64,000 nt of DNA from Sphingopyxis sp. LK2115 (GTDB lineage: Bacteria > Pseudomonadota > Alphaproteobacteria > Sphingomonadales > Sphingomonadaceae), in the NCBI RefSeq assembly GCF_014595975.1, contig NZ_JABWGQ010000003.1, positions 1-64,000 on the forward strand. The letters run 5' to 3'. The notes under the pieces are model-generated. The model did not search any database. It was not told where the DNA came from and worked only from the letters and a program-made list of their open reading frames with translations. Position numbers and translations under genes: made by a program. Shown one piece after another: positions 53,171 to 57,657 of this stretch (positions within the stretch are counted from its first letter, which is position 1; each line of letters opens with the position of its first letter).

Positions 53171-54153
53171 GACATTGCCTCCTTTATCGACGTTGCGGGC
53201 CAGGCAGGCGCCGCGGTCCGCACGGCGCTGCGCAGCGTGGCCGAACGCGCGCGCGGGTTACGCGCCTCTTCGGCCTTGCCCGGCCGCACCTTGCGCGCCG
53301 GGGGTTCAAAGGTTGCGGCGCGCGCAGGCACGGTCGGCGCGGGCCTGTGGCGCGATCCCGCGGCGTCGCCGCCGCTGCGCTCGCGCAGGAAATTCTTGAC
53401 GATCCGGTCCTCGGTGCTGTGAAAGCTGACCACCGCGAGCCGGCCGCCGGGGCGCAGCACACGCTCCGCGGCGGCCAAACCCGCGACCAACTCGTCGAGT
53501 TCGCGGTTGATGTGGATACGGATCGCCTGAAAGCTTTTCGTCGCCGGGTCTTTCGGCGCACCGGGCGGATGACGCAGCGCCTTGCGGATCACGCTCGCAA
53601 GCTCGGCGGTGCGCGTCAGCGGGCGCGCCGCGACGATCGCGCGCGCGACGCGGCGCGACTGGCGCTCGTCGCCATAATGATAGAGGACATCGGCAATCTC
53701 CTCTTCGTCGGCGCGGTTGAGCCAGTCGGCGGCGCTTTCCCCCTCTTGCGCCATGCGCATGTCGAGCGGGCCGTCCTTCTGGAAGGAAAAGCCGCGCTCG
53801 CCCTGATCGAGCTGCATCGACGACACGCCGATGTCGAAGGTGATGCCGTCGACCGCGTCGATCCCGCGTTCGGCGAGCAGCCGGTCGATTTCGCCGAACC
53901 GGCCGTGGATCAGCGTCAGCCTGCCGCCCGCTTTTTCGACCAGCGCCTGCCCGCCCGCGATCGCGTCGGGATCGCGGTCGCAGGCGACAACCTCGGCGCC
54001 CGCAGCGAGCATCGCGCGTGTATAGCCGCCCGCACCGAAGGTCGCATCGACATGGCGCTCGCCAGGGGCAATGGCGAGCGCGGCAATGACTTCTTCAAGC
54101 AGGACAGGATCGTGGCGGGGATCGCGGGGGAGTTCGGCGGGAAGGTCGGTCAC
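53164..54153 (-). CDS. rsmH: 16S rRNA m4C1402 methyltransferase
   Basis: A SAM-dependent N4-cytosine methyltransferase of 329 aa that modifies C1402 in the ribosomal P site. [43 protein letters not shown] and [11 protein letters not shown] are family signatures. The start is GTG 54153, overlapping the mraZ stop by 4 nt. The C-terminal 70 residues are arginine/alanine-rich. Confidence 0.96.
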
Positions 54154-54650
54154 TTGCGCGCCTTCCCTTTCGTCTGCTCCCATGAGGCGGCAAGCCGCTG
54201 AAGCACCGGATCGGCCTCGGCACATTCGGCGAGCGTCGGCAACCACCAGATTTCGAGGCGGCGGCCCGACCCCACAAAAGCCGTCGCGCCGGCATCGCCG
54301 ACGCGGTCGCGGTGGATGAAGCTGGGCAGAAAACGACCGCTGTCGTCGAGCGTATATGGCTCGGTATAGCTGAAACGCTTCTTGAACTCGCTGTCCTCGT
54401 CAAAATCGAGGTTGCGCAGCCGCGCGGTTTCGCGGTCGCGTTCGATCTCGCCGTTCAGCCGGTCATATTGATCCTGGCCATAGGCAACGAGGCACGGCAG
54501 CTTTTCATGGAAGCCAACCCATAGCACGCGCTGACCGTCCGCAGTGAGGGGCACATTGTTGCGGAACTGCGAGGGCACGGCGATGCGCCCCTTGCCATCG
54601 ATCGCGGCGAAACTGGTGCCCGCATATTGGCCGGGCGTCACAATCGCCAT
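54150..54650 (-). CDS. mraZ: Transcriptional regulator MraZ
   Basis: A 166-aa DNA-binding protein with two SpoVT/AbrB-like swapped-hairpin domains. The first contains [14 protein letters not shown] (about 16-29) and the second, weaker, [15 protein letters not shown] (about 101-115). In other bacteria MraZ binds repeats in front of its own operon and represses it. Regular GGG repeats are visible 125-160 bp upstream (54775-54823). It opens the dcw cluster. Confidence 0.95.
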
Positions 54651-54764
54651 CGCTCTGCCCCCTGCCTCGCGTCACCGGGCATAACTTTCCCGTCCCCGGA
54701 ATCGCAGGATTCCGGCTGAGTCGGCACGAGTGGAGAATGCCCCTCTCCGACAATCTGAGTATCA

Positions 54765-54823
54765 ACTATAGATCGGGGTGAAAAGGGGTATTTTAGGGCA
54801 GAATAGGGATTCTAGCCCCTATT
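54765..54823 (-). promoter_or_regulatory. mraZ promoter region with 10-bp-spaced GGG boxes
   Basis: On the plus strand GGGGT (54775), GGGGT (54785), AGGGC (54795) and AGGGA (54805) recur at exactly 10-bp steps, separated by A/T-rich 5-mers. An inverted fifth unit, CCCCTATT, ends at 54823. This is the geometry of known MraZ boxes (G-triplet units one helical turn apart), though on the strand opposite to mraZ. A possible -10, TATAGT, lies at 54770-54765 on the minus strand. The rest of 54651-54927 shows no gene. Confidence 0.5.
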
Positions 54824-54927: not shown

Positions 54928-56091
54928 TCAGTCGGCGCGCGAATGAATCCAGATCGGGTTCAGCGTCGCCCGCCCAGCGCCGGGCCACAGTCGCGCCGCA
55001 ATCCATTCCATCGTATCGGCTTGCCGCAGATGATCGGCGCCGGGGACAATCGGCCGCCACAGCGACGCATGAAAGAGATCGGCGTCGCCGACGAGCCAGA
55101 CCTCGCCCTTGCCGATCCGGCAATGAGCGACATGACCGTCCGCAAGGCGCCGACATGCCGAAGGAAGCCGGTCAAAGCGCCCGGCGCTCGACAGGCGGAG
55201 CCGCCCATGTTCGACGTCGACCGCAACTGCCGCGCCTTCCCCGACCGGTGCGCCGCCCAGCGCGACTCCCCAATGATCGAACAGCGGCGTGAGCAGGCTC
55301 GTCACCGGCGGGTTGCGCGGATCGCCGAGCGGATGGCGTGGCGGCCAGCTCGACAGCGCATCGGCGAGGATGACCGCGCGCGCGCCGCCGCGCACAACGG
55401 CGTCGATTGCAACCAGTTCCTGCGGCGCCAGCGCGCGCGGGTGCGCGATCAGCAGCGCCCCGCCCGGCGGCGGCACATGGTCAGCCAGACTGTCGACAAG
55501 CAGCGTCGGTCCCAGCCGCTCGATCCGCACCAGCGCGGGATCGTCGTTCGCGCCCGCGGCAATCATCGACGCCAGACTTTCGCCGCCCGGCCAACGCAGC
55601 GGCAGGCCGGTCAGCATCGTCGCCGCGGGCGCATCGGCGGACGCGGTCGCGGGCCGATAAAGCGCTGCGAGCAGCGCATGACCGGCGCTCCACCAGACGG
55701 AAACGAACAGCAGCGCCGCAAGCCAGGGCAGCGCGCGAAGCGACGGGCGCCACCGGACCAGTGCATCGGCGGCGAGCGCCGCAGCCCCGCCCGCCAGCGC
55801 GACCAGCAGCAATTGGAGCGTCGCCACAAATCCGGCCAGCGCGAAAGCGAGCGCCGCCTGCGCCGCTGCGGTCAGCCCCAGTGCCAGCAGGACGGTGCAC
55901 CGCCGAATGATGGCGGGATCGCGCCGCTGCCACCAGGCAAGCAACAGCATCGGCGGCGCGAGCAGCGGAACCGTGAGCGCGGGGTCGATCCGGCCGAGCA
56001 GCGCCTGCCCGCCGACCCACCAGGTGAACGCGACAGTCAGGATCGCAATCGAACCCGCGCGCAGAACAGACCCGCGTAACCCCGCGGTCAC
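54928..56091 (-). CDS. DUF4350-like membrane protein
   Basis: A 387-aa protein whose first about 145 residues form four or five hydrophobic helices. The remaining part is soluble and resembles DUF4350/GldG-type domains related to class I amidotransferase folds (LLVDSLADHVPPPGGALLIAHPRAL, GGARAVILAD, GDADLFH). The function is not known. Its ATG overlaps the stop of the small membrane protein upstream by 4 nt, making it the third gene of cysK-orf-DUF4350. It ends 277 bp before mraZ. Confidence 0.72.
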   Translation of the reverse strand: MTAGLRGSVLRAGSIAILTVAFTWWVGGQALLGRIDPALTVPLLAPPMLLLAWWQRRDPAIIRRCTVLLALGLTAAAQAALAFALAGFVATLQLLLVALAGGAAALAADALVRWRPSLRALPWLAALLFVSVWWSAGHALLAALYRPATASADAPAATMLTGLPLRWPGGESLASMIAAGANDDPALVRIERLGPTLLVDSLADHVPPPGGALLIAHPRALAPQELVAIDAVVRGGARAVILADALSSWPPRHPLGDPRNPPVTSLLTPLFDHWGVALGGAPVGEGAAVAVDVEHGRLRLSSAGRFDRLPSACRRLADGHVAHCRIGKGEVWLVGDADLFHASLWRPIVPGADHLRQADTMEWIAARLWPGAGRATLNPIWIHSRAD

Positions 56092-56486
56092 GGCGCCGAC
56101 TGGCGCGCGCGCTGAAGTTCGGGATCGGGTTCAAGGTCAGGGACGGTGGCCGTCGGCGCCACCGCCTGTGGCACCTTTATCGACGGGTCGACATTTTCAT
56201 CCTTCGACGAGGGCGACACCGGCTGAACCCCCAATTCTTCGAGCGGCGCGCCGCCCGCCTGATTGTCGCCGGGCAGCTTGACCTCCGCGCTCGATGCCTC
56301 TTCGGCCGCCACCTGTTCGCGCGCGCGGTCGCCGATCAGCCCGGCCATGCCGACGAGCAGCAGCACCGTCAACACCCCGGCGATGCCGATCTGCAGTCGG
56401 CGCATGGCATCGTGCGCCTGCGGGGGCGGCGGCGCGGCTTTCTGTCCTGCCGGCGTGGTCGAACCGCTGTCGATACGCACACTCAT
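56088..56486 (-). CDS. Small single-helix membrane protein
   Basis: A 132-aa protein with a hydrophilic N terminus, one membrane helix (IGIAGVLTVLLLVGMAGLIG, about 32-52) and a long acidic, proline-rich tail likely in the periplasm. I do not recognise a family. The start is ATG 56486 with GTGAAAGG ahead. It lies 8 bp after cysK and is coupled to the DUF4350 gene, so the two membrane proteins probably work together. Confidence 0.7.
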   Translation of the reverse strand: MSVRIDSGSTTPAGQKAAPPPPQAHDAMRRLQIGIAGVLTVLLLVGMAGLIGDRAREQVAAEEASSAEVKLPGDNQAGGAPLEELGVQPVSPSSKDENVDPSIKVPQAVAPTATVPDLEPDPELQRARQSAP

Positions 56487-56494
56487 CCTTTCAC

Positions 56495-57463
56495 CTATGC
56501 CAGTCCCTTGCTGGCCAGCCATTCAGGGTTGTAGAGCGTCGAAAGATAGCGAAACCCGCTGTCGCACAGGATGGTTGCAATGCGCTTGCCCGGCCCCAGG
56601 CGCCGCGCCAGCGCCATCGCGCCCGCAACATTGATGCCCGACGAAAGGCCGAGGCACAGCCCCTCCTCGTCGAGCAGGCGGCGCACGACGGCGAGCCCCT
56701 CGGCATCGGAGATGCGGAATTGCGTGTCGATCGGCGCGCCCTCGAGGTTCGCCGTGATGCGGTTCTGCCCGATGCCTTCGGCGACGCTCGACCCTTCGGC
56801 CTTCAGCTCACCGCACTGGTAATAATTGTAAAGGCCCGCGCCATGCGGGTCGGTCAGCGCAATGGTGATGTCGGGATCCCTGGCTTTCAGCCCCAGCCCG
56901 GTCCCGGCAATCGTCCCGCCGGTCCCCGCGGCGCAGGTAAAGCCGTCGATCCGCCCCTCCATCTGCGCCCATATTTCCTCTGCCGTGCCGCACACATGTG
57001 CCTTGCGGTTGGCGATATTGTCGAACTGGTTCGCCCAGATCGCATTGTCGGTTTCCTCAGCAATTCGGCGCGAGGTGTGGACGAAATGGCCGGGGTTGGC
57101 GAAAGGCGCGGGCGGCACGAGCACCAGCTCGGCGCCCAATGCGCGGATCGTCGCCATTTTTTCGGCGCTTTGATTGTCGGGCATGACGATGATCGTCTTG
57201 TAACCCAGCGCGTTGGCGACGAGCGCAAGCCCGATGCCGGTGTTGCCCGCGGTCCCCTCGACGATCGTTCCGCCGGGCGCCAGGCTGCCGTTCGCTTCGG
57301 CATCGCGAACAATATACAGCGCGGCGCGGTCCTTCACCGATCCGCCGGGGTTGGCATATTCGCACTTGCCCCAGATTTCGCAGCCGGTCGCTTCGCTGGG
57401 GCCCTTGAGCAGGACGAGCGGCGTGTTGCCGATCAGGTCCAGGCTGGTTTTGGCAATCGTCAT
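56495..57463 (-). CDS. cysK: Cysteine synthase A (O-acetylserine sulfhydrylase)
   Basis: A PLP enzyme of 322 aa making cysteine from O-acetylserine and sulfide. The N-terminal IGNTPLVLLKG is followed by the PLP lysine in PGGSVKDRAA. The phosphate-binding loop GTGGTIAGTG and the substrate loop EGTAGNTG are also present. The start is ATG 57463, since the upstream reading is arginine-rich. It is divergent from the TonB receptor across 194 bp and leads an operon with two membrane protein genes. Confidence 0.93.
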   Translation of the reverse strand: MTIAKTSLDLIGNTPLVLLKGPSEATGCEIWGKCEYANPGGSVKDRAALYIVRDAEANGSLAPGGTIVEGTAGNTGIGLALVANALGYKTIIVMPDNQSAEKMATIRALGAELVLVPPAPFANPGHFVHTSRRIAEETDNAIWANQFDNIANRKAHVCGTAEEIWAQMEGRIDGFTCAAGTGGTIAGTGLGLKARDPDITIALTDPHGAGLYNYYQCGELKAEGSSVAEGIGQNRITANLEGAPIDTQFRISDAEGLAVVRRLLDEEGLCLGLSSGINVAGAMALARRLGPGKRIATILCDSGFRYLSTLYNPEWLASKGLA

Positions 57464-57597
57464 GCGCCTTGATCTAGGACCGCGTTCGGGACGCCGCAAG
57501 ACAGCTTCGCTTTTCTCGCCGATGATCGGCCTTTGTCGACCAATCGCCGTTCGGCGCCGACCAACCGCAGACCGGAAGGCGGAACGGGCTTGCCATT

Positions 57598-57615
57598 GTA
57601 ACAGTATATCATTAC
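57598..57615. promoter_or_regulatory. Zur-like palindrome before the TonB receptor
   Basis: GTAACAGTATATCATTAC matches its reverse complement at 12 of 18 positions (GTAA....TATA....TTAC). It lies 42 bp before the ATG of a receptor with His-rich segments. The A/T-rich dyad is of the kind bound by Zur/Fur-family repressors. The assignment to Zur is inference from the gene it precedes. Confidence 0.4.
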
Positions 57616-57657
57616 TGGCACGGCATACCCACATTCAGTCAGGATTATCGCCGTCCC

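Follow-up and report, generated by a model that had tools for sequence, protein, structure and literature searches.

Four GGG boxes at exact 10-bp steps directly upstream of mraZ in Sphingopyxis sp. LK2115 very probably form the operator through which MraZ regulates its own division and cell-wall cluster, in an alphaproteobacterial version that lies on the template strand, over what we predict to be the core promoter. MraZ is a widespread bacterial regulator that heads the cell-division cluster; in other bacteria it forms an oligomeric ring, each subunit of which has two AbrB-like half-domains. Here, "the window" is the whole 64-kb stretch of DNA that was analysed, and all positions refer to it. 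On the plus strand the boxes read GGGGT at 54775 and 54785, AGGGC at 54795, and AGGGA at 54805, with a shared register in which GGG falls at 54776, 54786, 54796, and 54806. Beyond them lies an inverted unit, and AATAGGG (54802-54808) and CCCTATT (54817-54823) make up a perfect 7-bp inverted repeat. The units, as read from the sequence, are:

54775 to 54778, plus strand: box 1, MraZ-type (GGGG), immediately 3' of a -35-like hexamer on the mraZ strand
54785 to 54788, plus strand: box 2, MraZ-type (GGGG), immediately 5' of the same hexamer on the mraZ strand
54796 to 54798, plus strand: box 3, MraZ-type (GGG), its CCC invariant in 30 aligned loci of the genus
54806 to 54808, plus strand: box 4, MraZ-type (GGG), its CCC likewise invariant in those 30 loci
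54816 to 54819, minus strand: fifth unit, in the inverted sense, which reads GGGG along the coding strand of mraZ and CCCC along the plus strand

When the 277-bp intergenic stretch was shuffled 5000 times with its dinucleotides kept, a run of at least four GGG or CCC at 10-bp steps arose once. The window holds a single such run, the box array, and 20 shuffles of the full 64 kb gave a mean of 0.05. Similarly, a search of both strands of the 3.2-Mb genome for GGG-7-GGG-7-GGG-7-GGG returned one match, the array itself. The sequence, the shuffles, and this uniqueness confirm what the first-pass annotation had described: four GGG boxes at 10-bp steps before mraZ, on the opposite strand, with a fifth unit inverted.

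The genes around the array are as follows:

54150 to 54650, minus strand: mraZ (PF02381, 37.4 bits against a cut-off of 23), with rsmH (PF01795) next
54928 to 56091, minus strand: a DUF4350-like gene, directed towards mraZ
56088 to 56522, minus strand: a small gene, directed towards mraZ
56495 to 57634, minus strand: cysK, directed towards mraZ; the cysK group (54928-57634) lies upstream of mraZ

Because mraZ is on the minus strand, the boxes read as CCC on its coding strand. They had earlier been said to read toward the cysK operon. Since cysK (whose product in the window has an 80.7% match to Sphingomonas parapaucimobilis, by which the window was assigned to the Alphaproteobacteria), the small gene, and the DUF4350-like gene are also on the minus strand and run towards mraZ, the boxes face no cysK promoter, and that direction carries no functional meaning.

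Within the genus, 58 of 60 genomes (this one included) have a PF02381 match, and we examined the best 30 matching loci together with the window. All 31 have four CCC at exact 10-bp steps on the mraZ coding strand, and 30 of them also have a GGG in the inverted sense, 10-12 nt 5' of the first CCC. One locus was too close to a contig end to be aligned; across the other 30, no box varies in its CCC, and the stretch ACCCCTTTTCACCCC is almost invariant. A comparison of upstream regions across relatives, proposed earlier as a check, finds the boxes in all examined loci of the genus, and template-strand arrays in 22/40 from other genera of the family and 21/29 from other families of the order. The MraZ proteins are strongly diverged (24% to B. 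subtilis); the D-x-K-x-R and D-x-x-x-R signatures of the two half-domains are both present in 30 distinct proteins of the genus.

Strand use was compared more widely in genomes whose kinship was taken from database group labels. A PF02381 match was found in 126/196 genomes drawn from the order, 198/240 from the class, and 211/299 from the phylum, and, in further draws, in 40/41 Actinomycetota, 41/41 Bacillota, and 39/41 Bacteroidota, these three being reached through the named loci of one scan (46 loci). The loci examined are a part of the matches, up to 30 per draw plus 100 further stretches. Each was scored by a symmetric scan, in which five box words on both strands were set against 200 dinucleotide shuffles; 22 near-identical Enterobacteriaceae loci (L143-L162, L164, L167), 3 duplicates, 2 short loci, and 10 loci without MraZ were excluded. 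Among 190 examined alphaproteobacterial loci, the array was on the template strand in 150, on the coding strand in 4, and on both in 4, with none significant in 32. By group, the examined loci divide as follows:

Window's genus, 31 loci: template strand in all
Other genera of the family, 40 loci: template strand in 22, coding strand in 3, no significant array in 15
Other families of the order, 29 loci: template strand in 21, coding strand in 1, both strands in 2, no significant array in 5
Remainder of the class, 90 loci: template strand in 76, both strands in 2, no significant array in 12
Other Pseudomonadota, 53 loci: coding strand in 44, both strands in 3, no significant array in 6
Bacillota, 47 loci: coding strand in 39, no significant array in 8
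Actinomycetota, 30 loci: coding strand in 22, both strands in 2, no significant array in 6
Bacteroidota, 31 loci: coding strand in 20, both strands in 2, no significant array in 9

The expectation that MraZ boxes elsewhere stand on the coding strand at a 10-bp step was borne out, both in E. coli and in the 161 examined loci from outside the class (125 coding only, 0 template, 7 both, 29 none significant). The first-pass annotation had treated the reversal as a trait of this group; the strand is indeed reversed relative to other groups, but this is not confined to the Sphingomonadales and is found across the class. An earlier tally based on the word TGGG missed 19 of the 31 genus loci, because the word there is A/G-GGG, and was superseded by the five-word scan.

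Spacing and strand also stand out when words are counted in pairs. In 120 alphaproteobacterial loci outside the family, 212 CCCA pairs were 10 bp apart, where other distances gave 1.1 on average, and TGGG pairs at 10 bp numbered 2. In 151 thinned loci from other groups, GTGG pairs at 10 bp numbered 196 against 3.9 elsewhere, and CCAC pairs 11. Thinning removed the near-identical Enterobacteriaceae loci, which the unthinned pair and promoter counts had included, and 11 Bacillus near-copies; the unthinned GTGG count was 245 against 4.6 (187 loci). Read along the strand that carries GGG, boxes outside the class have the word GTGG(G), those of alphaproteobacteria ATGGGA, and those of the window's genus A/G-GGG, as against TGGG or GTGG in its relatives. 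The base preceding TGG is G in 91% of cases outside the class and A in 81% within it, in arrays that (outside the genus) were selected with a TGGG word and are therefore biased towards TGGG. A third G is present in 38-57% of boxes outside the class, many of which are GTGG with two Gs.

The array also goes with the gene. From the family, 20 genomes without a PF02381 hit were picked (L367-L383, L385-L387); all have a diverged MraZ, which the six-frame PF02381 search misses and a profile built here finds. Of ten other PF02381-negative alphaproteobacterial genomes picked likewise, nine have no MraZ beside rsmH and no array (L359-L366 and L384, in genomes G583, G627, G575, G513, G666, G507, G612, G653, and G553), and the tenth, L388, has a gene fragment only and was left uncounted. 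A run of three boxes within 1500 bp occurs in 0/9 of these loci. By the same rule it occurs in 11/20 MraZ-bearing loci of the family, some perhaps by chance (Fisher p 0.005 against 0/9), and, within 500 bp of the mraZ start, in 75/120 other alphaproteobacterial loci (Fisher p 0.0003 against 0/9); as background, 2 of the 64 one-kb tiles of the window score. The array thus adjoins mraZ in every examined locus of the genus and is missing from the nine loci without MraZ beside rsmH.

Scanning the region for sigma-70 promoters gave no hit, and the promoter was instead assigned from class-wide co-conservation, with a predicted start site. The motif TTGACn-14-TGnTA is present in 49 of the 120 alphaproteobacterial loci outside the family and a 15-bp version in 28 others, with none at spacings of 8-13 or 16-21. 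It resembles the Caulobacter RpoD consensus as given in the accessible text of PMC8144410 (TTGaCgS / GCtANAWC), and its -10 half fits poorly (TATCCC after TGn). Measured from TTGAC, CCCA falls at -4, +6, +16, +26, and +36 in 22, 33, 42, 39, and 21 of the 49 loci, that is, from about -39 to +2, across the -35, the spacer, and the -10. In 23 thinned loci from other groups with a recognisable promoter (45 before thinning), GTGG lies 13-14, 23-24, and 33-34 bp past the -12 T, from about +2 onward downstream. Of the 31 examined loci of the window's genus, 29 contain TTT[TC]CA-14-TGnTA, with one match at all other spacings from 8 to 21, and the 14-bp spacing of this motif is that of the class. The predicted elements in the window are:

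54779 to 54784, minus strand: TTTTCA, a -35-like hexamer flanked by boxes 1 and 2, predicted from the genus and class spacing
54759 to 54764, minus strand: extended -10-like region TGATAC, free of boxes in the genus, placed by its register with the class promoter
54732 to 54749, minus strand: conserved hairpin CGGAGAGGGGCATTCTCC at the predicted 5' end of the mRNA, from the genus alignment and a predicted fold

If this assignment is right, the array of the genus has moved upstream by about two boxes, so that it would bracket the -35 only; its upstream edge carries the single inverted unit. Followed in the GGG direction, arrays of either kind seem to begin near the start site and run off downstream in most bacteria or upstream in alphaproteobacteria, as if rotated about the transcription start. 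The first-pass annotation was right that these look like MraZ boxes on the opposite strand; that their position relative to the promoter had changed as well went unnoticed.

Eraso et al. (2014) are said to have placed MraZ boxes upstream of mraZ in E. coli, where the sequence has the -10 TAAACT followed by GTGGGAAATTGTGGGGCAAAGTGGG on the coding strand. The two systems share four G-core boxes at 10-bp steps, directly before mraZ with rsmH next. They differ in that the E. coli boxes are of the GTGGG type, on the coding strand and just past the -10, whereas those of the window are A/G-GGG, on the template strand and across the -35. In Burkholderia cenocepacia, MraZ was shown by EMSA to bind a DNA fragment with four 7-nt repeats and 3-nt spacers; these share the window's 10-bp step and number of four, but they begin past the -10 and extend over the start site, which matches E. 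coli and not the window (PMC7761207, accessible text). The Mollicutes site, reported by Fisunov et al. (2016) according to PMC8475190 as AAAGTG[T/G], likewise consists of short direct repeats at the mraZ promoter with a GTG core, in a word different from that of the window. The UpsM leader of Rhodobacter sphaeroides is likewise tied to an alphaproteobacterial dcw promoter upstream of mraZ, with a start site 268 nt from the gene, and a term search of the available text of that paper found no mention of MraZ boxes or repeats (PMC5089854). The window array has the at least three direct repeats at a 10-bp step that mark MraZ operators; it lacks the GTG or TGGG core word (no T precedes GGG) and the coding-strand placement downstream of the -10 found in E. 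coli and Burkholderia. Given the A/G-GGG word of the window and genus, we class the array as a variant and not as a canonical MraZ box.

We would picture consecutive subunits of the MraZ ring on boxes one helical turn apart, with the alphaproteobacterial array turned 180 degrees relative to the gene so as to cover the -35, spacer, and -10; in that position bound MraZ should exclude RNA polymerase from the promoter. In E. coli and others, the array from about +2 would cover the transcription start and early leader. Judging from the comparisons above, MraZ would bind the array and repress by occlusion, and a single early flip with a shift onto the core promoter, within the Alphaproteobacteria, would account for the distribution.

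Could the boxes be something other than MraZ sites? The usual rule for a G-quadruplex asks for four tracts of at least three Gs with loops of 7 nt or fewer, and the four tracts here, with loops of 6, 7, and 7 nt, match it. Such a structure on the mraZ template strand might then control transcription, with the 10-bp spacing incidental, and a precedent is reported from S. aureus, where a G4 motif past the mraZ promoter, on its downstream side, was seen to fold in vitro (PMC11796246, accessible text). We regard this as very improbable: a quadruplex needs no fixed phase, yet the observed spacing is sharply 10 bp; the many two-G GTGG boxes of other groups cannot form three tetrads; the array is absent from the nine alphaproteobacterial loci without MraZ; and the S. 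aureus tracts may themselves be MraZ boxes. We also hold it very improbable that some regulator other than MraZ acts on the division cluster through this array, CtrA or a response regulator akin to CenR being examples. The available text of PMC3616915 places CtrA motifs upstream of mraZ in Sinorhizobium meliloti and that of PMC9275681 gives ChIP enrichment of CenR in R. sphaeroides, but in the latter text the promoter regions concerned are without a predicted CenR motif. Moreover, the G-core word and 10-bp period are common to the mraZ arrays of other groups, array presence goes with mraZ presence, and the genome has a single four-box match, unlike the sites of a global regulator.

A third proposal leaves the operator to MraZ but supposes that the alphaproteobacterial protein was itself re-engineered to contact DNA in the opposite sense. 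It draws on strong differences between alphaproteobacterial and other MraZ at many positions (for example 8, 9, 37, 53, 75, and 89 in E. coli numbering; such correlates of the strand flip are confounded with phylogeny) and on the change from G to A before TGG. Against it, the charged residues of the signature hardly vary, if at all, in either half across the groups compared, the TGGG core is kept on the GGG strand in most alphaproteobacteria (where boxes were selected with a TGGG word), coding-strand arrays are back in two loci of one sister genus, and an MraZ ring could in principle accept an operator either way round. We therefore consider re-engineering unlikely. Of the two options left by the first-pass annotation, that orientation does not matter or that the repressor reads the boxes differently, the former is the better supported: the GGG core, the 10-bp step, and the signature residues are kept, and there are the two coding-strand loci, so orientation is probably irrelevant to the operator.

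Those two loci, L380 and L417, come from a sister-genus sample of 35 loci (28 new and 7 earlier), 24 of which have a run of at least three CCC, in one (L352) far upstream. L417 has three GGG at 10 bp on the coding strand, immediately upstream of TTGAAC-14-TGTTAC, and L380 has three TGG at 10 bp on the coding strand, immediately upstream of TTGTAG-14-TGGTAC; neither has a CCC run. Both appear to be re-flipped arrays, and array orientation thus seems to change again within one family. Of the four alphaproteobacterial loci scored as coding only (L380, L052, L369, and L372), L380 seems truly so; in the other three the coding array is distal and box-like C words lie closer to the gene. In L393, two G boxes abut four C boxes, and the inverted unit of the window may resemble a first step of such a change.

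In the family outside the genus, we also found boxes farther upstream, on the strand opposite to the promoter array. GGGA pairs there number 31 at exactly 10 bp, where every other distance between 4 and 30 gives 0-7, and TCCC pairs at 10 bp number 3. Such a pair accompanies 25 of 44 strong promoter arrays (68 family loci inspected), in a test that is sharper than a count of three-box runs but post hoc, set up after the sister-genus arrays had been inspected, and on related loci that are not independent. Loci with a distal pair, of up to four boxes, include L367, L368, L374, L375, L397, L399, L400, L401, L403, L406, L408-L411, L414, and L416, with others. The nearest such pair tends to stand 122-125, 133-136, 143-147, or 156 bp from the promoter array, with one at 101, and these distances are phased at a 10.5-bp period (R = 0.72, nominal p about 1e-5, 22 loci; 10.8-11 fits slightly better). 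After thinning at 70% MraZ identity the phasing is kept (R = 0.74, p about 0.007, 9 loci), whereas single GGG as a control gave R = 0.15 (p about 0.33). A stricter three-box test scored 6/40 loci in other genera of the family, 2/29 and 3/90 elsewhere, and 0/30 in the genus, where distal GGG pairs at 10 bp were likewise absent from 30 loci.

Opposite-strand pairs in phase with the promoter array suggest two facing, possibly looping operators. We put forward, tentatively and as a doubtful possibility, that Sphingomonadaceae MraZ uses the promoter array together with a distal one, which has two to four boxes and in most cases lies some 120-160 bp upstream, facing the same side of the helix. A repression loop could then be closed by a pair of rings or by a single ring with subunits to spare, and orientation would switch by growth of inverted units at one edge and decay at the other. 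One inverted unit with four boxes (the window's genus), two with four (L393), and coding-strand boxes only (L380, L417) could form such a series. Against the two-operator reading stand the post hoc nature of the test, the small number of loci with three distal boxes, the absence of a distal pair from the window's genus, and the box words of the two arrays, which show no covariation from locus to locus (p = 0.19).

MraZ operators have so far been described from few groups. A literature search, mostly at title and abstract level, found no description of alphaproteobacterial MraZ boxes, which may be mentioned elsewhere; the operator is thus known in kind, and its alphaproteobacterial orientation, position, and distribution are without a description in the literature searched. 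The probable flip onto the core promoter offers a natural test of the effect of polarity, the more so as one family seems to include arrays that have turned back and others of mixed strand. It also bears on how an oligomeric ring repressor reads repeats and on how operators reverse in evolution. A further question is whether the G-quadruplexes that have been predicted in mraZ leaders are in fact no more than MraZ boxes. The S. aureus mraZ-leader quadruplex, a reported drug target, has the position and G-tracts expected of such boxes, as far as the accessible text of PMC11796246 describes it.

The leader of the window's mraZ has features of its own. A search of Rfam gave nothing above threshold (sX6 scored 16.4 bits against 40), and the whole leader folds no better than shuffles (z -0.49), so we make no riboswitch claim. 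The hairpin CGGAGAGGGGCATTCTCC pairs in the predicted fold, and 17 of its 18 columns are invariant in 30 genus loci, with the remaining one at least 70% conserved. After it, near 54675-54705, lies a second conserved leader stretch of the genus.
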